The notes beneath the pieces are model-generated. The model was not told the origin of the DNA. It saw nothing but the letters and a program-made list of their open reading frames with translations, and did not search any database. A stretch of DNA of 64,000 nucleotides, taken from an uncultured Lachnospiraceae bacterium. GTDB lineage: Bacteria; Bacillota; Clostridia; Lachnospirales; Lachnospiraceae. Position numbers and translations under genes: made by a program. The stretch's first letter is position 1. Each line of letters opens with the position of its first letter. This document shows positions 21,716 to 29,527 of the stretch, piece after piece. The stretch lies in contig CAMWBY010000005.1 in NCBI GenBank assembly GCA_947172645.1, positions 1-64,000 on the forward strand, in the 5' to 3' direction.

Positions 21716-24628
21716 ATGGATGACAAGAAATTGGTAATCGGTGTTCTGGCCCATGTGGATGCCGGGAAGACAACATTGGCGGAGAGCATTTTATATACAA
21801 GCGGCAGCATACGGAAGATGGGCCGGGTAGACCATAAGGACGCCTTTCTGGATACGGATATGCAGGAGCGGGACAGGGGAATCACCATTTTTTCCAAACA
21901 GGCGAGATTTCGGTGGAAGGATATGGATATCACGCTCTTAGATACGCCGGGACATGTGGACTTTTCGGCGGAGATGGAGCGGACTTTGCAGGTGCTTGAC
22001 TACGCGGTGCTTGTGATAAGCGGGGCGGACGGCGTACAGGGACATGTGCCGACCTTGTGGAGGCTGCTGAAACGTTATGAAGTCCCGGTGTTCCTTTTTA
22101 TCAATAAGATGGACCAGCCGGGAACAGACGCGCAGGGGCTGCTTACGGAAATCAAGGGCAGGCTGGACGAGAGGTGCGTGGCATTCGGAGAACGTGACCG
22201 GGAATTTTATGAGAACATTGCGGTCTGCGACGAGGAACTGTTGGAGCGCTATCTGGCAGGGGAGGATGCCAGGCAAGCTGCCAATGGGGGTTATGGAAGG
22301 CAGGCGGAAAGCACGCCGGAAGAGGCGGATGGGCGGGAAGATGCGCCTATAGACGATGAAACGATAGCGGCGCTTGTTGCAGAGCGTAAGGTGTTTCCCT
22401 GTTTCTTCGGTTCCGCGCTGAAAGCGGAAGGTGTCTGTGAACTGTTGGACGGGATTGCCTGTTATACGCGCATGCCGTCTTACGGGGAGGATTTCGGGGC
22501 GAGAGTCTATAAAATCTCCAGGGACGCCCAGGGGAACCGTCTGACCCATGTAAAAATAACAGGTGGTACGCTTCGGGTAAAAGAGACAATCCATACCCAT
22601 GGCGGAAATGGAAATCCAGAGCATTTCCAGGAAGAAAAAATTGACCAAATCCGTATGTATTCCGGCAGTAAATATACTTTGGAACAGGAAGTGTCCGCAG
22701 GGACAGTCTGCGCATTGACCGGGCCGGTTACCACTTTTTGCGGAGAAGGGCTTGGAGCAGAGCCGGGGAGTGTGGTTCCACTGCTTGTGCCGGTGATGAC
22801 TTACCGCATTGTATTGCCTGAGGGCTGCGACGTGCATCAGACGTATAATAAGTTATGTCAACTTGAAGAGGAAGAGCCGCAGCTCCATATGGTATGGAAG
22901 GAGCAGGTGGGGGAGATTCAGGCACAGCTGATGGGCGAAGTGCAGACGGAAATTTTGCAGAATCTGATTCGGGAGAGATTCGGAATGGAGGTTTCTTTTG
23001 ACGAGGGCAGTATCGTCTATAAGGAGACCATCGCGGACACGGTGGAAGGAGTCGGGCATTATGAGCCGCTCAGGCATTACGCGGAGGTACACCTTCTCAT
23101 GAAACCGGGAGAGCCGGGCAGCGGTTTACAGTTTGGCACAAGATGCAGCGAGGATGTGCTTGACAGGAATTGGCAGCGGCTTGTGATGACGCATTTGGAG
23201 GAAAAAGCGCATCTTGGCGTATTGACAGGTTCTCCGGTGACGGATATGCAGATTACGCTTGTGGCAGGACGCGCCCATTTAAAGCATACGGAGGGTGGGG
23301 ATTTCAGGCAGGCTACATATCGCGCCGTAAGACAGGGGCTTTGCAAAGCGAGGAGTGTTTTGCTTGAGCCAGTGTATGCCTTCAGGCTTGAGCTGCCTGT
23401 GGCCATGATTGGACGAGGCATGACGGATATGCAGGAGAGGCACGGAAGGTTTGCGGCGCCTGAGATTGCAGGAGAATATGCTGTCCTCACTGGCACGGTA
23501 CCTGCATCGAAGATGGCAGGATACCAGGCTCAGGTGCTTTCTTATTCCGCCGGGCAGGGCAGGCTTTATACGGAGCTGAAGGGTTATGCGCCGTGCCACA
23601 ATACGGAGGAAGTGATAGCGGCATTCGGGTATGATGCCGGGCGGGACGTGGAGAATCCCGGCAGTTCCGTGTTCTGTGCCCATGGGGCAGGATTCGTGGT
23701 GGAGTGGGACCAGGTGGAACAGTATATGCATTTGGAGAGTGTGCTGCCGGACAAGGTTCAGGGACAGGCTGGTCAGGCGGAGAAGGATGGCGGATGGCAG
23801 GAGAAGGGCATTGCTTATCATGGCGGAGCGGACAGACGCCAGAGTGAATCTTCGGCGGGCGTGATAGGGCAGGATGAAATCGAAGAGATTATGAGCCGCA
23901 CTTATGGCACGAAAGAACGCAAGAAGCAGGGATGGGCGAGAACCATCAGGGCAGGAGAAGCCTCCAGGGCGCGGGACAGCGCCGGGACTGTGCACGGGGA
24001 ATCTGACAAGGCAGAGAGCAGCGGAACAGACAGGAAAGGACACGTTCAGGGACAAAGCGGCAAGCCTGGGCAGGACGGAGCAGCCAGGGCACAGGAAGAA
24101 TATCTTCTCGTGGACGGTTATAATATTATTTTCGCCTGGGATGCTTTGAAGGACTTGGCACAAGTCAATCTGGACAGCGCAAGGGGCAGGCTGATGGACG
24201 TCTTAAGCAACTTTCAGGGATACCGTAAGATGCATTTAATTCTTGTATTTGACGCTTATAAAGTAAAAGGCAATCCGGGCAGCACGGTGCGTTACCATAA
24301 TATCGATGTGGTATATACGAAAGAAGCGGAGACTGCCGACCAGTATATCGAGAAAGTGACACATGAAATTGGCAGGAAACATTATGTGAGAGTGGCCACA
24401 TCCGATGGTTTGGAGCAGTTAATCATTATGGGTGCGGGAGCAATCCGCGTATCCGCAAGGGAGTTGCTTGAGGAAGTGATGGCAGCAGGGGATGAACTGC
24501 GGGAGATGTTTCTTGAGGACAGTATAGACAGGGCTGTGGGTGACAAGAATTATCTTTTGGACGATGTTTCCAAAGAAGTGTCAGACTATGTGGAACAGGT
24601 CAGGCAAGGAAAAGAGACAAATTGTTAA
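21716..24628 (+). CDS. EF-G/TetM-like translational GTPase fused to Rae1/YacP endoribonuclease
   Basis: 970 aa. Residues 1-~690 are an EF-G-type factor of the ribosomal-protection branch: G1 AHVDAGKTT, switch RGITIFSK, G3 DTPGHVDF, G4 NKMDQ, G5 GSALKAEGV, then domains II-V. A ~100-residue charged, low-complexity linker follows. Residues ~794-960 are a NYN/YacP domain: LLVDGYNIIFAWDAL, LVFDAYKVKG, VVYTKEAETADQYIEK, VATSDGLEQL with its acidic residues kept. In Bacillus YacP (Rae1) cuts mRNA in the ribosomal A site. The fusion would bring a nuclease to ribosomes by means of a translational GTPase. It is not to be read as tetracycline resistance. The Suv3-like helicase gene is 72 bp downstream. 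Confidence 0.88.
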   Translation: MDDKKLVIGVLAHVDAGKTTLAESILYTSGSIRKMGRVDHKDAFLDTDMQERDRGITIFSKQARFRWKDMDITLLDTPGHVDFSAEMERTLQVLDYAVLVISGADGVQGHVPTLWRLLKRYEVPVFLFINKMDQPGTDAQGLLTEIKGRLDERCVAFGERDREFYENIAVCDEELLERYLAGEDARQAANGGYGRQAESTPEEADGREDAPIDDETIAALVAERKVFPCFFGSALKAEGVCELLDGIACYTRMPSYGEDFGARVYKISRDAQGNRLTHVKITGGTLRVKETIHTHGGNGNPEHFQEEKIDQIRMYSGSKYTLEQEVSAGTVCALTGPVTTFCGEGLGAEPGSVVPLLVPVMTYRIVLPEGCDVHQTYNKLCQLEEEEPQLHMVWKEQVGEIQAQLMGEVQTEILQNLIRERFGMEVSFDEGSIVYKETIADTVEGVGHYEPLRHYAEVHLLMKPGEPGSGLQFGTRCSEDVLDRNWQRLVMTHLEEKAHLGVLTGSPVTDMQITLVAGRAHLKHTEGGDFRQATYRAVRQGLCKARSVLLEPVYAFRLELPVAMIGRGMTDMQERHGRFAAPEIAGEYAVLTGTVPASKMAGYQAQVLSYSAGQGRLYTELKGYAPCHNTEEVIAAFGYDAGRDVENPGSSVFCAHGAGFVVEWDQVEQYMHLESVLPDKVQGQAGQAEKDGGWQEKGIAYHGGADRRQSESSAGVIGQDEIEEIMSRTYGTKERKKQGWARTIRAGEASRARDSAGTVHGESDKAESSGTDRKGHVQGQSGKPGQDGAARAQEEYLLVDGYNIIFAWDALKDLAQVNLDSARGRLMDVLSNFQGYRKMHLILVFDAYKVKGNPGSTVRYHNIDVVYTKEAETADQYIEKVTHEIGRKHYVRVATSDGLEQLIIMGAGAIRVSARELLEEVMAAGDELREMFLEDSIDRAVGDKNYLLDDVSKEVSDYVEQVRQGKETNC

Positions 24629-24700: not shown

Positions 24701-26782
24701 ATGGAAAATAGGATGATAGAAAATGACGTGTTAGTAGATACATCCATGCAGGAGACAGGGAATGCGTCATTGGCTGATACGGTGGGCAAAGAAGAGAGGA
24801 CAGCCCAGATTCCCGACGACATACCGGAGAAAGTCTGGAATACTTATGCGGCTGCTTTTACGCAGTTTAGGCCAAACGAACAGCGCAAGTTTGTGAAAGG
24901 CTGCGAGAAGCAGATTGGCCAGCTTGAACGGCGCATCGCGCGTAAGAAGGGGCAGGAGAACCATCAAATACTGGCCGATATGAAAGATTTGCACAAGAAA
25001 GCGGCGGTAATCGGCCATACGGTGGCGAACAGGGACGCCCATCTGCGAAAGAAATTCAGGCGCACGCTGCGCATGCTTATAAGGCTTGATATTTCTTTTC
25101 TTCAGAAGATGGCGGCGGGCGCAAACGCGGAAGACATTCTTGACATGCCAAGGACGGCTGAACTGCTGCGGGTTAAGTCGCTTTATGAGATTTATAAAGA
25201 AGAGTATATGCAGTATCTTGTGGGGCAGCGCATAGAGGGCCTTATGGGGGCGGAACCGGAGAAACAGTATCCTGAGGCGAGGGGCATGAAGCGGCACTTC
25301 ATTCTGCATATCGGTCCTACCAACAGCGGTAAGACTTATGAGGCGCTGCAACGGCTGAAACATGCCTACCATGGGATTTACTTAGGGCCGCTCAGGCTGT
25401 TGGCGTTAGAGATTTACGACAGGATGATGACGGCGGGCATTCCGTGCAGTATGATTACAGGGGAGGAGGCCATACGCACGCCGGGTAGCTTCGTGCAGGC
25501 TTCCACGGTGGAGATTCTTGATATCAGGGAAATCTATGATATTGCGGTGATTGACGAGGCGCAGATGATGGCGGACGAAAACAGGGGCAGCTTCTGGACC
25601 CGCGCCATTCTGGGCATCCGGGCGGAAGAAATCCATGTATGCTGTTCGGGTACTGCGGAAAATCTTTTGGTCAGGATGATACGCAGATGTGGGGATACCT
25701 ATGAGACAGTCCGTCACGAGCGCAATACGAAGTTAGAGTTTATCCCGAAACGTTACGATATGGGGAAGGATGTGGAACCCGGCGATGCGCTGATTGCTTT
25801 TTCCAAGAAAAACGTTTTGGCAATCGCCGCCGCCCTGGAGGGCAGGGGAATCAAGGCAAGTGTTATTTACGGGAATCTGCCTCCGCAGACAAGGCAGGAG
25901 CAGGTGCGGCTTTTTACGGAAGGCGTCAATCAGGTGGTGGTGGCCACAGACGCTATCGGTATGGGCATTAACCTGCCGATACGCCGTATTGTTTTTATGA
26001 ACAGCATGAAGTTCGACGGTACGGACAAGCGTAAGCTGGAAGCGGAAGAAATCAGGCAGATTGCCGGGCGGGCAGGCAGATATGGCTACTATGATACGGG
26101 CTATGTGCAGTCGGCTATGGATACGGAATATATCGGAAGGAAACTGAGTGAGCCGCTTCATCCGATTAAGCGGGCAAGAATCGGGTTCCCGGAGGTGCTT
26201 CTCGATATTGACATGGAGATGGACGAGATTATCGAGGCGTGGGAGCAGACGAAGAATCTGCCCATGTATGACAAGATATCTATGGCGGAGAGCGTGAAGA
26301 AATACCGTTATCTCAAAAATTACCGCAAGAAACTGTCTTATATTGACGACCGGAAATTTGTGCTGTCGCTGATTACCTGTCCCTTTGACGTGAAGGACAG
26401 GGAGGTGCTGCGGCTTTGGCTCAGGTATTGCGAGCGGCCTACGGAACAGCATAACTGTCCGATGTTGCCTCAGGATTTCAGTCTGGAAGGGCTCGAATCC
26501 TACTATAAGCAGTTAGATTTATATACCCAGTTTTCCGGCAGGATGAATTGGGAAGTGGACAGGGAAGAAGTGGCAGTCAACAGGGAGTGGGCACAGCATG
26601 AAATCGGGGAATTATTAAAAGAGAACAAGGACATGTTCGAAAAGAAATGCCGTAACTGCGGGGCGGTGCTGCCGTGGGATTATGCTTTTCCAATCTGCCA
26701 GGAGTGCTATCACAGCGGCGGCATGGAAGATGACCGGGTGCGGCGTTCCATGAGCAGATATCCGAACAGCCATTACAGGTGA
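24701..26782 (+). CDS. Suv3-like DExH RNA helicase
   Basis: 693 aa. The core resembles Suv3, the helicase of the mitochondrial RNA degradosome: motif I IGPTNSGKT near 205, DEAQ box AVIDEAQMM near 283, SGTAE, motif V VVVATDAIGMGINLPI, and motif VI QIAGRAGRYG near 452. The N-terminal ~190 residues are helical and basic. After the core comes a helical C-terminal part and a four-Cys zinc ribbon, CRNC ... CQEC, near 649-668, which I do not know from Suv3 itself. It should unwind RNA or RNA-DNA. It is followed after 6 bp by the phosphopantetheinyl transferase gene, and preceded by the GTPase-Rae1 gene. Confidence 0.82.
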   Translation: MENRMIENDVLVDTSMQETGNASLADTVGKEERTAQIPDDIPEKVWNTYAAAFTQFRPNEQRKFVKGCEKQIGQLERRIARKKGQENHQILADMKDLHKKAAVIGHTVANRDAHLRKKFRRTLRMLIRLDISFLQKMAAGANAEDILDMPRTAELLRVKSLYEIYKEEYMQYLVGQRIEGLMGAEPEKQYPEARGMKRHFILHIGPTNSGKTYEALQRLKHAYHGIYLGPLRLLALEIYDRMMTAGIPCSMITGEEAIRTPGSFVQASTVEILDIREIYDIAVIDEAQMMADENRGSFWTRAILGIRAEEIHVCCSGTAENLLVRMIRRCGDTYETVRHERNTKLEFIPKRYDMGKDVEPGDALIAFSKKNVLAIAAALEGRGIKASVIYGNLPPQTRQEQVRLFTEGVNQVVVATDAIGMGINLPIRRIVFMNSMKFDGTDKRKLEAEEIRQIAGRAGRYGYYDTGYVQSAMDTEYIGRKLSEPLHPIKRARIGFPEVLLDIDMEMDEIIEAWEQTKNLPMYDKISMAESVKKYRYLKNYRKKLSYIDDRKFVLSLITCPFDVKDREVLRLWLRYCERPTEQHNCPMLPQDFSLEGLESYYKQLDLYTQFSGRMNWEVDREEVAVNREWAQHEIGELLKENKDMFEKKCRNCGAVLPWDYAFPICQECYHSGGMEDDRVRRSMSRYPNSHYR

Positions 26783-28815: not shown

Positions 28816-29154
28816 ATGTGTACAGAAGTTCAAGTTAAGAGTATATTGAGGCAAATATCCCACTTTTATCATTTGGTATATGGAGACGATGTTGTAGCGG
28901 TTTACTTATATGGTTCTTATGCGAGGGGAAACTACAATGAAGAATCAGATATAGATGTTACAGCTATTGTAAAAGGAGAACGCTTTGATTTGCAAAATAA
29001 GTTAAAGCAGATATGGAATGAATCTGCGGATATTGGGCTTGAAAATGATGTTGTTGTGTCGCCCACAGTTATACCATTTGATGAGTATGAGCGTTATAAA
29101 GAAATACTTCCTTATTATATGAATATACAAAAAGAAGGAAAGCGGATTGGATAA
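28816..29154 (+). CDS. Minimal nucleotidyltransferase (MNT) of MNT/HEPN pair
   Basis: 112 aa. The signature GSYARGNYNEESDID is the GSx10DxD motif of polymerase-beta-fold nucleotidyltransferases, and a later Asp/Glu completes the site. In characterised MNT/HEPN toxin-antitoxin pairs the MNT protein adds AMP to the HEPN toxin and silences it. ATG 28816 has GGGAG 8 bp upstream. The HEPN gene overlaps its end by 8 bp. The pair looks AT-rich compared with its neighbours, suggesting acquisition. Confidence 0.85.
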   Translation: MCTEVQVKSILRQISHFYHLVYGDDVVAVYLYGSYARGNYNEESDIDVTAIVKGERFDLQNKLKQIWNESADIGLENDVVVSPTVIPFDEYERYKEILPYYMNIQKEGKRIG

Positions 29155-29527
29155 TTTAATAAATTACAGGCTTGAAAATGCAAAAGAAAAATTGGAATCG
29201 GCAAAACTTTTATTGGATGCTGGAAAATTCCGTGATTCAATTGGGCGCTCCTACTATGCTATATTTACGGCAGTTAGGGCGGTTTTAGCAAGCGATAAGG
29301 TGGATTTTTCTAAACATGCAGGAGTAATAGCTTATTTTCAAAAAGAGTATATCAAGACAGGAAAGTTTGATGTGAAATATTCTAAATATTTGCAATCTGC
29401 TTTTCAAATAAGAAATAGTTGTGACTATGATGATTTTTTTGTAGTATCTAGGCAGGATGCAGAAGAGCAGTACTATAAAGCGTCCGAATTTTACGACCAA
29501 ATTTGTAACTATATCACAAATTTATAA
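29147..29527 (+). CDS. HEPN-domain protein, probable toxin of MNT/HEPN pair
   Basis: 126 aa, all-helical HEPN domain: LENAKEKLESAKLLLDAGKFRDSIGRSYYAIF at the N-terminus and RNSCDYDDFF in the C-terminal helix. That last block takes the place of the RNase motif Rx4-6H, but with Tyr in the His position (RNSCDY). Start is TTG 29147, with AAGGA about 9 bp upstream, inside the end of the MNT gene. HEPN proteins act as RNases in many defence and toxin-antitoxin systems; whether this variant cuts RNA is open. Confidence 0.8.
   Translation: MDNLINYRLENAKEKLESAKLLLDAGKFRDSIGRSYYAIFTAVRAVLASDKVDFSKHAGVIAYFQKEYIKTGKFDVKYSKYLQSAFQIRNSCDYDDFFVVSRQDAEEQYYKASEFYDQICNYITNL

Follow-up and report, generated by a model that had tools for sequence, protein, structure and literature searches.

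The question raised by this locus is what is done by a protein in which a translational GTPase of the EF-G fold and a Rae1/YacP-type endoribonuclease share one chain. In the window (the whole stretch of DNA analysed, 64,000 nucleotides), a single frame with one ATG start runs exactly from 21716 to 24628 on the forward strand and encodes 970 aa without an internal stop. The initial annotation had read this gene as an unbroken fusion of a GTPase with an NYN nuclease, and this was borne out, as no stop or frameshift was found between the parts. The features are the following:

21716 to 24628, + strand: complete gene of the fusion (970 aa), present once in the genome
21716 to 23740, + strand: EF-G-fold GTPase part, aa 1-675, with domains G and II-V and a conserved tail (Pfam, AlphaFold2, Foldseek)
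21734 to 22465, + strand: G domain (GTP_EFTU), aa 7-250, Pfam 173.5 bits; no variation in the G1-G5 residues or in His80 of DTPGH across 60 rows
23009 to 23350, + strand: domain IV (EFG_IV), aa 432-545 (Pfam)
23267 to 23308, + strand: domain IV tip loop, aa 518-531, of the type H-x-K-H-T-E-G-G-D-F-R, neither Tet(M) nor EF-G type (alignment)
23357 to 23602, + strand: domain V (EFG_C), aa 548-629 (Pfam, match listed from aa 548 to 629)
23666 to 23731, + strand: conserved GTPase C-terminal tail, aa 651-672, SVFCAHGAGF...YMH, common to the unfused sister GTPases and unlike the Tet(M) C-terminus
23741 to 24088, + strand: charged linker, aa 676-791, predicted to be disordered (AlphaFold2 pLDDT mostly below 50)
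23876 to 23908, + strand: linker motif, aa 721-731, E-I-x-x-I-x-x-R-T-Y-G (alignment), with a short helix predicted by AlphaFold2 at 719-730
24104 to 24604, + strand: Rae1/YacP NYN endoribonuclease domain, aa 797-963 (PF05991; 5mq8/5mq9)
24113 to 24115, + strand: Asp800, aligned to Rae1 D7 of 5mq9, Asp in 84/84 rows
24251 to 24253, + strand: Asp846, aligned to Rae1 D51 of 5mq9, Asp in 84/84 rows
24338 to 24340, + strand: Asp875, aligned to Rae1 D81 of 5mq9, Asp in 84/84 rows
24404 to 24406, + strand: Asp897, aligned to Rae1 D104 of 5mq9, Asp in 84/84 rows

The N-terminal part was of the EF-G type, as had been proposed, and ended near aa 675 rather than at residue 690. All the G motifs that had been claimed were present and invariant in the 60-row alignment: A12-T20 (AHVDAGKTT), R54-T57 (RGIT), D76-H80 (DTPGH), N130, K131, D133 and G232-A234. 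The match to EFG_III (aa 359-428) was below its Pfam cut-off. AlphaFold2 was confident over most of this part, and the best structural matches in Foldseek were EF-G chains, with an EF-G fold over about 700 columns; the whole-chain match was loose in domain arrangement (target TM-scores of about 0.4-0.7). The G1-G5 motifs, the EF-G domains (domain III below its cut-off) and the EF-G fold place the protein among the EF-G fold translational GTPases (EF2 family). A sequence search of the PDB matched aa 6-627 to TetO and aa 796-936 to YacP (5mq8/5mq9), and it also found many EF-G chains. NYN_YacP (PF05991) scored 163.4 bits against a cut-off of 24.6 and covered model positions 1-165 of 166, in agreement with the complete Rae1 domain initially annotated.

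An assembly artefact or a chance join was ruled out, since a long frame of this kind, defined as one of at least 800 aa bearing the NYN domain, was found in 250 of 298 sampled Lachnospiraceae genomes, and all 30 fused loci read at full length had both parts in a single frame. The fusion is thus common in this family, and the impression voiced in the initial annotation was correct. PF05991 was detected in 270 of the 298 genomes; besides the 250 with a fusion-length frame, 12 had a stand-alone gene, 4 had broken or partial fusion frames and 4 had matches at contig edges. The domain was absent from the remaining 28 (search setting, at least 90% complete), so its function seems dispensable. No genome of the 298 showed both an intact fusion and an intact stand-alone Rae1. 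One (G030) had a fusion-length frame and a second NYN piece cut by the contig end.

Outside Lachnospiraceae but within the same class, 225 of 230 PF05991-positive genomes were judged by frame (G646, G647, G657, G658 and G669 were left out). The fusion and the stand-alone form were equally frequent (107 genomes each, 11 being unclear), and G572 was the sole genome with both. Among the best 80 of 586 confirmed loci, the frame was fused in 71, truncated at a contig edge in 3, and short or intermediate in 3 each. In the source genome (46 contigs, 98% complete), a profile search found the NYN domain of the fusion as the only PF05991 copy, and there was no other full-length match to the fusion besides itself. 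In almost all carriers, the fusion is the cell's only Rae1.

Stand-alone rae1 lies in the order mrnC-rlmB-rae1-sigH. We read the surroundings of rlmB in 20 fusion-only genomes: no NYN match was present within 1.5 kb in 19, sigH followed rlmB in 13, and a decayed rae1 remnant persisted at the old locus in one, G656, which lies outside Lachnospiraceae. In the source genome, too, no NYN match was found within 1.5 kb of rlmB (locus L175). In genus g305, the ancestral rae1 locus was kept in G347, the fusion was present in G414 and G467, and fusion-length frames were found in G319, G500, G543, G601 and G668. The stand-alone rae1 has been displaced from this locus by the fusion, which has taken its place in most of the relatives studied.

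For the NYN tree, one in three of the fused loci L010-L039 was taken, and rows that were duplicated, split or at a contig edge were left out. One fused row (L152) fell outside the fused group in a quick tree, and joining all 48 fused rows was not rejected (p-AU 0.628); a topology test on placing the stand-alone Rae1 of G572 with the fused group gave a p-AU of 0.44, which does not decide for or against this placement. The fusion had a single origin, or nearly so, and seems to have spread between families. The idea that stand-alone Lachnospiraceae Rae1 split off from the fusion was not favoured, as its 10 rows stood beside, not inside, the fused NYN rows, with modest support for this placement (SH-aLRT 83 and 86). 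A conserved operon partner was sought within five genes of the fusion at 31 loci and none was found, the commonest gene family occurring 8 times. A gene for a SUV3-like helicase lies just downstream of the fusion in the window; a counterpart was seen only beside the unfused GTPase of G182.

Among plasmid records with any match to the query, 2 of 1367 covered at least 80% of it. Most of the query was found on these two records (Monoglobus pectinilyticus and Agathobacter rectalis) and on 2 unannotated 'Bacteriophage sp.' contigs, which are too few for a mobile-element origin to account for the distribution.

The initial annotation knew of no description of such a joint function. For the fusion itself, a short passage of Atkinson 2015 (PMC4342817) already reports Tet proteins with a YacP-like NYN domain in ten clostridial species and proposes that the RNase activity is a new resistance mechanism. 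Those proteins, from Clostridiales, have the same combination and order of domains as ours. On this reading, also adopted in several NCBI protein names, the fusion is a ribosomal protection protein of the tetracycline type to which an RNase has been added. Indeed, tet_protect was its best-scoring NCBIfam model (399.6 bits), Tet(M) and Tet(O) are EF-G-like five-domain GTPases with about 27-31% identity to it, and no gap is needed to align its domain IV loop with the Tet(M) loop. This score is, however, far below the cut-off of 775 and below every listed Tet cut-off; two other fusions scored 432 and 422 bits, whereas a control Tet(M) (from G457) reached 880.5 bits and passed its own cut-off. At the position of the loop III S-P-V of Tet(M) (S508-V510), which the fusion lacks, 31 of 31 fusions had H-x-(K/Q)-H-T-(E/Q/D)-G-G-D-F-R. 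The 17 unfused sister GTPases have the same tip, whereas the tips of the Tet(M)-type rows (4) and the EF-G-type rows (6) are different. By sequence comparison only, the Tet(M)-type C-terminal helix was also missing, its place being taken by the SVFCAHGAGF...YMH tail and the linker.

Tet(M) Pro509 has been described as overlapping tetracycline (passages of PMC7456112), but a triple S508A/P509A/V510A Tet(M) was reported to be still active (passages of PMC4750697), so that the missing S-P-V is not decisive by itself against a Tet reading. Since two other Tet-like rows below the tet_protect cut-off (L109 and L115) have tips sharing some letters with the fusion type, we take the tip as a clade mark, not as proof of function. 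The presence of the fusion in most family genomes and its near-absence from the matching plasmid records also argue against this explanation, which we consider improbable. Leaving resistance function aside, the NCBIfam cut-offs and the domain IV loop rule out membership of the Tet(M) family; 'EF-G/TetM-type', as initially written, does not hold as a claim of TetM membership, and 'TetM family' names for the fusion are probably misleading. EF-G itself shares the fold and the G motifs, and His521 of the fusion aligns with the tip His of the EF-G rows, but the fusion scored 283.8 bits with TIGR00484, far below the cut-off of 659.4, and the source genome has separate EF-G-like frames, one of them cut by a contig end.

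The nuclease part resembles Rae1/YacP of Bacillus subtilis (5mq8, 5mq9). Twenty columns conserved at 95% or more are identical in fused and stand-alone forms, which also have W808, R823 and Q901 in common, and D800, D846, D875 and D897 correspond to Rae1 D7, D51, D81 and D104. We take these four Asp to be the catalytic residues of the NYN/PIN fold. The tail past D104 was 64-73 aa long in 36/36 stand-alone rows and shorter than 50 aa in 6/31 fusions, indicating that the nuclease end is partly changed in fusions. Unlike B. subtilis Rae1, a protein of about 170 aa encoded on its own after rlmB at the mrnC-rlmB-rae1-sigH locus, the NYN domain is here the C-terminal domain of a GTPase. One may ask if the fusion could be an enzyme of stable-RNA (rRNA or tRNA) maturation mounted on a ribosome-assembly GTPase. 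Maturation of rRNA and tRNA was an early proposal for this NYN domain, cited in a passage of PMC4342817, and the stand-alone gene adjoins mrnC (rRNA-processing) and rlmB (rRNA-methylating; enzyme roles from passages in the later group of papers PMC8266666, PMC6613710 and PMC12320835). In passages of these later papers, however, Rae1 of B. subtilis is an A-site endoribonuclease associated with the ribosome, and the domains of the fusion are of the elongation-factor type; we find this explanation very improbable.

The charged linker of about 100 residues initially annotated does exist; it is about 122 aa long in this fusion (61-142 aa across 31 fusions) and contains a conserved motif. The motif was present in 31/31 fusions (29 by pattern and 2 by eye) and in 0/17 unfused sister GTPases searched. 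In 60 rows, I725 was invariant and E721, R728, T729 and G731 were conserved at 90% or more. This motif, predicted to be helical, is a third part of the fusion protein; it may serve in docking of the nuclease or in binding of a ribosomal partner.

The linker also bears on the possibility that the chain simply carries two independent jobs, Rae1 acting as in Bacillus, the GTPase having a ribosome task of its own and the linker only keeping the nuclease near ribosomes. The length, variability and predicted disorder of the linker fit with this, as does the occurrence of an unfused sister GTPase and a stand-alone Rae1 as separate genes in one genome (e.g. G043, G137, G169 and G269). Close unfused sisters were found in only 16/47 tested genomes with stand-alone Rae1 and 2/32 without NYN (not corrected for kinship), so neither part needs the other. 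Against two separate jobs, the linker motif is kept in all 31 fusions, and the fusion, of single or near-single origin, has been retained in most of Lachnospiraceae and coincides with loss of rae1 from the old locus in other families, which suggests that linkage is an advantage. We hold this alternative to be rather doubtful.

The explanation that we prefer, with a probability of roughly 0.55, is that the fusion is a housekeeping factor, encoded once and on the chromosome, which joins the only Rae1 of the cell to a GTPase that has the EF-G fold and forms a clade of its own. This GTPase would bring Rae1 to paused ribosomes; delivery is the part that we infer, whereas the single chain, the conservation of both active sites and the replacement of stand-alone rae1 are seen in the sequences. 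Passages of PMC8266666, PMC6613710 and PMC12320835 present B. subtilis Rae1 as an endoribonuclease of the ribosomal A site. The initial idea of an A-site mRNA endonuclease is strengthened by the finding that cells with the fusion hardly ever have another Rae1, their genomes having lost the stand-alone gene. Where the A site of a ribosome is vacant or slow, the GTPase would bind at the factor site and its domain IV would probe that A site. A single A site cannot hold domain IV and Rae1 together, so the steps would have to be sequential, or the NYN domain would have to act elsewhere. In the sequential case, after GTP hydrolysis, domain IV would withdraw and the flexibly linked NYN domain, on a linker long enough for this, would enter the A site and cut the codon there. 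With this cut, decay of the mRNA would begin, and the shortened message would be left to rescue of the tmRNA type. Alternatively, the NYN domain may cut where the mRNA enters the ribosome, or it may cut on a neighbouring one. Against the preferred explanation, Rae1 of Bacillus reaches the A site by itself, with no GTPase, so delivery need not be what the GTPase is for. The competition for one A site, the occurrence of each part without the other, the partly changed nuclease end, the 28 family genomes that lack PF05991 and the loose whole-chain fold match also count against it.

More tentatively, the fusion could be a GTP-clocked mRNA cleavage factor. Its GTPase would test if a paused ribosome keeps an empty A site and, once GTP is hydrolysed, pass this site on to the tethered Rae1, so that cutting and rescue of the mRNA would be coupled to the timer of a translation factor. 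The fusion would then count as a separate subfamily of translational GTPases, apart from EF-G, Tet, RF3, LepA and TypA. This subfamily would have assumed the role of Rae1 throughout Lachnospiraceae and passed from one family to another, the linker motif being a third, new functional element. SmrB and MutS2 are ribosome-collision factors with SMR domains. Like the proposed factor, they bring a nuclease or nuclease-like domain to stalled ribosomes (see also the abstract of PMC10897456), but this is an SMR domain and not an NYN domain on a translational GTPase.

In the passage of Atkinson 2015 (PMC4342817) on the fusion we found no mention of sole-Rae1 status, replacement of rae1, transfer, the linker motif or a non-Tet loop. 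New here, relative to that passage, are the status of the fusion as sole Rae1, the displacement of rae1, the near-single origin with apparent spread between families, the distinct domain IV tip and the linker motif. Several public records call the fusion a tetracycline resistance protein, a name that looks wrong and could inflate resistance counts. Ready natural comparisons are offered by G169 and G043, where the parts are separate, by G572, which has both forms, and by G656, with its decaying old gene. Most of the genomes sampled from a major gut family carry the fusion. If the cut is timed or delivered by its GTPase, a single protein would couple an mRNA endonuclease to a ribosome motor, which would offer a direct handle on the cell's decision to destroy the message on a paused ribosome.

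Window positions 21716-24628 on the forward strand form a single open frame of 970 codons, in which Pfam recognized both parts of the chain, bearing out the initial annotation of a GTPase joined to Rae1/YacP.

Pfam matches in the fusion protein
aa 7-250, GTP_EFTU
sub-threshold, EFG_III
aa 432-545, EFG_IV
aa 548-629, EFG_C
aa 797-963, NYN_YacP (PF05991; 163.4 bits)

In a PDB sequence search, the GTPase part matched TetO and EF-G chains and aa 796-936 matched YacP (5mq8, 5mq9). The AlphaFold2 model (60 sequences; mean pLDDT 79.9, pTM 0.64) had high confidence over most of aa 1-675 and 795-930; the stretch in between was disordered, except for a short helix at aa 719-730 (block pLDDT 56). The top solved structures found by Foldseek were EF-G chains, many of them ribosome-bound, aligned over ~700 columns with a loose overall superposition (rmsd 6-15 Å). 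Across 60 aligned rows, no variation was seen in the residues of G1-G5 (His80 of DTPGH among them), nor in Asp800, Asp846, Asp875, and Asp897, the four aspartates that align with D7, D51, D81, and D104 of Rae1, residues that we take to be catalytic. All four aspartates were found in 84 of 84 NYN rows of a second set (48 fused, 36 stand-alone). Twenty columns, including W808, R823, and Q901, were at least 95% conserved with the same residue in fused and stand-alone NYN domains. All G motifs and a complete YacP/Rae1 domain, as first annotated, are thus present, and both active sites are kept.

PF05991 was found in 270 of 298 genomes of Lachnospiraceae. By open frame, 250 had a frame of at least 800 aa, in agreement with the earlier impression that the fusion is widespread in this family, 12 had a stand-alone gene, 4 a broken or partial fusion (genomes G033, G119, G115, and G192), and 4 a contig-edge frame. 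The suggested search for further EF-G-NYN fusions was productive: we fully read 30 fusion loci drawn from a wide range of genera and families, and all 30 were the same fusion, the remaining fusion-length frames being assigned from length. PF05991 was also present in all of the best 120 of 7985 scored protein matches to the GTPase part. Elsewhere in the class, 225 of the 230 positive genomes were examined, of which 107 were fusion-length, 107 stand-alone, and 11 unclear; when four of the latter were re-read, G482, G340, and G367 adjoined fusion-type GTPase sequence, and G573 had a stand-alone gene following rlmB. Across a sample of the whole phylum, a match at E 1e-100 was obtained in 18 of 249 genomes; 16 of these had frames of fusion length, judged by length, and they included families outside the class. 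The fusion is real, widespread, and partly described. Frames interrupted between or inside the parts were seen in G033 (locus L274), G119 (L275), G340 (L278), and G192 (L279); they may be draft-assembly errors or real decay. Fusion-length rows of G023, G071, and G077 contained three or four internal stop codons of mixed kind.

The stand-alone gene lies in a mrnC-rlmB-rae1-sigH locus, often with cysS, an arrangement shared by several Lachnospiraceae and families f37, f54, and f49. It directly followed rlmB in 6 of the 9 stand-alone Lachnospiraceae genomes read; in G048, G182, and G269 (L141-L143), it lay away from rlmB, in a partly shared new neighbourhood. We searched for rlmB in 40 genomes and read the flanks in the 30 that gave loci, 20 of which were fusion-only. 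No NYN match was found beside rlmB in 19 of these 20, and sigH followed rlmB in 13. The window's own genome has cysS-mrnC-rlmB (L175), with no NYN there. In the twentieth of the fusion-only genomes (G656, outside the family), a decayed remnant of rae1 lies between rlmB and sigH (contig C56, about 81209-81444; 2430-2606 of L190). Within one genus (g305), G347 retains mrnC-rlmB-rae1-sigH, G414 and G467 carry the fusion, and G319, G500, G543, G601, and G668 have fusion-length frames. A full fusion together with an intact stand-alone gene was found in G572 only. In nearly all carriers, the fusion is the sole Rae1.

The GTPase had initially been annotated as EF-G/TetM-type. Its EF-G fold held (Pfam, Foldseek), but the Tet assignment did not: it scored 399.6 bits with NCBIfam tet_protect (cut-off 775), and its domain IV tip is not S-P-V. 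The score with NCBIfam EF-G was 283.8 bits (cut-off 659.4), while a control Tet(M) from G457 exceeded its cut-offs. By these cut-offs, the fusion belongs to neither family. Its tip reads H-x-K-H-T-E-G-G-D-F-R in the fusions, whereas 4/4 Tet(M)-type rows have S-P-V and 6/6 EF-G-type rows have D-S-S-E; two further Tet-like rows (L109, L115) had tips of neither kind. His521, His524, Thr525, Gly527, Gly528, Asp529, Phe530, and Arg531 were present in all 31 fusions, Lys523 in 30, and Glu526 in 23. The unfused sister GTPases (without NYN) had the fusion-type tip in 17/17 cases, Glu526 apart. In Tet(M), Pro509 overlaps the drug tetracycline (PMC7456112), but replacement of S508, P509, and V510 together reportedly leaves the protein active (PMC4750697), so that tetracycline resistance as the role of the fusion is unlikely rather than excluded. 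Names in the sources, where given, were 'TetM/TetW/TetO/TetS family', 'translation factor GTPase family protein', 'NYN domain-containing protein', and 'small GTP-binding protein'. A match confined to the GTPase part (aa 4-674, 45.9% identity), named TetM family, was seen on Ligilactobacillus salivarius plasmids (NZ_CP114507.1, others; 214-kb).

Trees of both parts were quick searches without bootstrap. In the GTPase tree, all 31 fused rows formed one clade (SH-aLRT 100), its sister (98) being the unfused GTPase of G169, which still has rae1 after rlmB. In the NYN tree, one group (98) united the Lachnospiraceae stand-alone rows with every fused row except L152 (47 of 48); a constraint keeping all fused NYN rows together was not rejected. 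Because the fusions of families f49, f26, f84, f22, f9, f45, f21, and f58 nest within those of Lachnospiraceae in both trees, these sequence data point to outward transfer from Lachnospiraceae. On a second group of other families (f12, f17, f40, f56, f11, f27, f60, and f18), the two trees disagree: by GTPase it branches outside the fusions of Lachnospiraceae, by NYN beside the fusion of the window. Among the genomes tested, 16 of the 47 with stand-alone Rae1 had a close unfused sister GTPase, versus 2 of the 32 without NYN (Fisher p 0.005, kinship ignored), a hint, short of proof, of a link between GTPase and Rae1 before fusion.

Neighbouring genes in the window
24701-26782, forward strand, SUV3-like RNA helicase (PF22527, 206.8 bits), 72 bases downstream of the fusion
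28816-29154 and 29147-29527, forward strand, small overlapping frames

In G182 (L098), a counterpart of the helicase adjoins the unfused sister GTPase, and none was found within five genes of the fusion in the other 30 fusion loci. The small frames, with translations judged by eye, look like a nucleotidyltransferase and HEPN-type pair in a toxin-antitoxin-like layout.

The tail after D104 measured 64-73 aa in 36/36 stand-alone rows and 37-82 aa in fusions (<50 aa in 6/31). It may be important when Rae1 works alone, since the C-terminal R166P is among the B. subtilis efp suppressors classed as rae1 loss-of-function (PMC6613710). The linker of the 31 fusions was 61-142 aa long (median 76). All contained, with some variation, the motif E-(L/I/V)-x-x-(I/V)-x-x-x-(T/A)-(Y/F)-(G/Y/F) (29 by pattern; L152 and L154 by eye), which was found in 0/17 unfused sisters and is a short helix by AlphaFold2 prediction. 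Our guesses are that it docks the nuclease or binds a ribosomal partner.

Judging from the two families, the EF-G-fold GTPase would dock at the factor-binding site, its domain IV pointing to the A site, and the Rae1 part would cut mRNA in that site. Rae1 is described as a ribosomal A-site endoribonuclease (PMC8266666, PMC6613710, and PMC12320835). A single A site cannot hold domain IV and Rae1 together, and we therefore propose sequential steps: the GTPase part would recruit the fusion to the ribosome, GTP would be hydrolyzed, domain IV would then withdraw, and the tethered nuclease would enter the A site. Even the shortest linker of 61 aa, about 220 Å at 3.6 Å per residue by arithmetic, should let the NYN domain reach it. 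With such a tether, the nuclease might alternatively cut where the mRNA enters the ribosome, or act on an adjacent ribosome. An attractive proposal is that GTP hydrolysis and mRNA cutting would be coupled. The fusion itself is not new: Atkinson 2015 (PMC4342817) described it in ten clostridial species, with its RNase activity proposed as a means of resistance. In the literature searched, most of it at the level of search listings, we found no account of it as a Rae1 replacement. What this analysis adds is the fusion as the replacement Rae1 of Lachnospiraceae, with a separate GTPase clade and a conserved linker motif.
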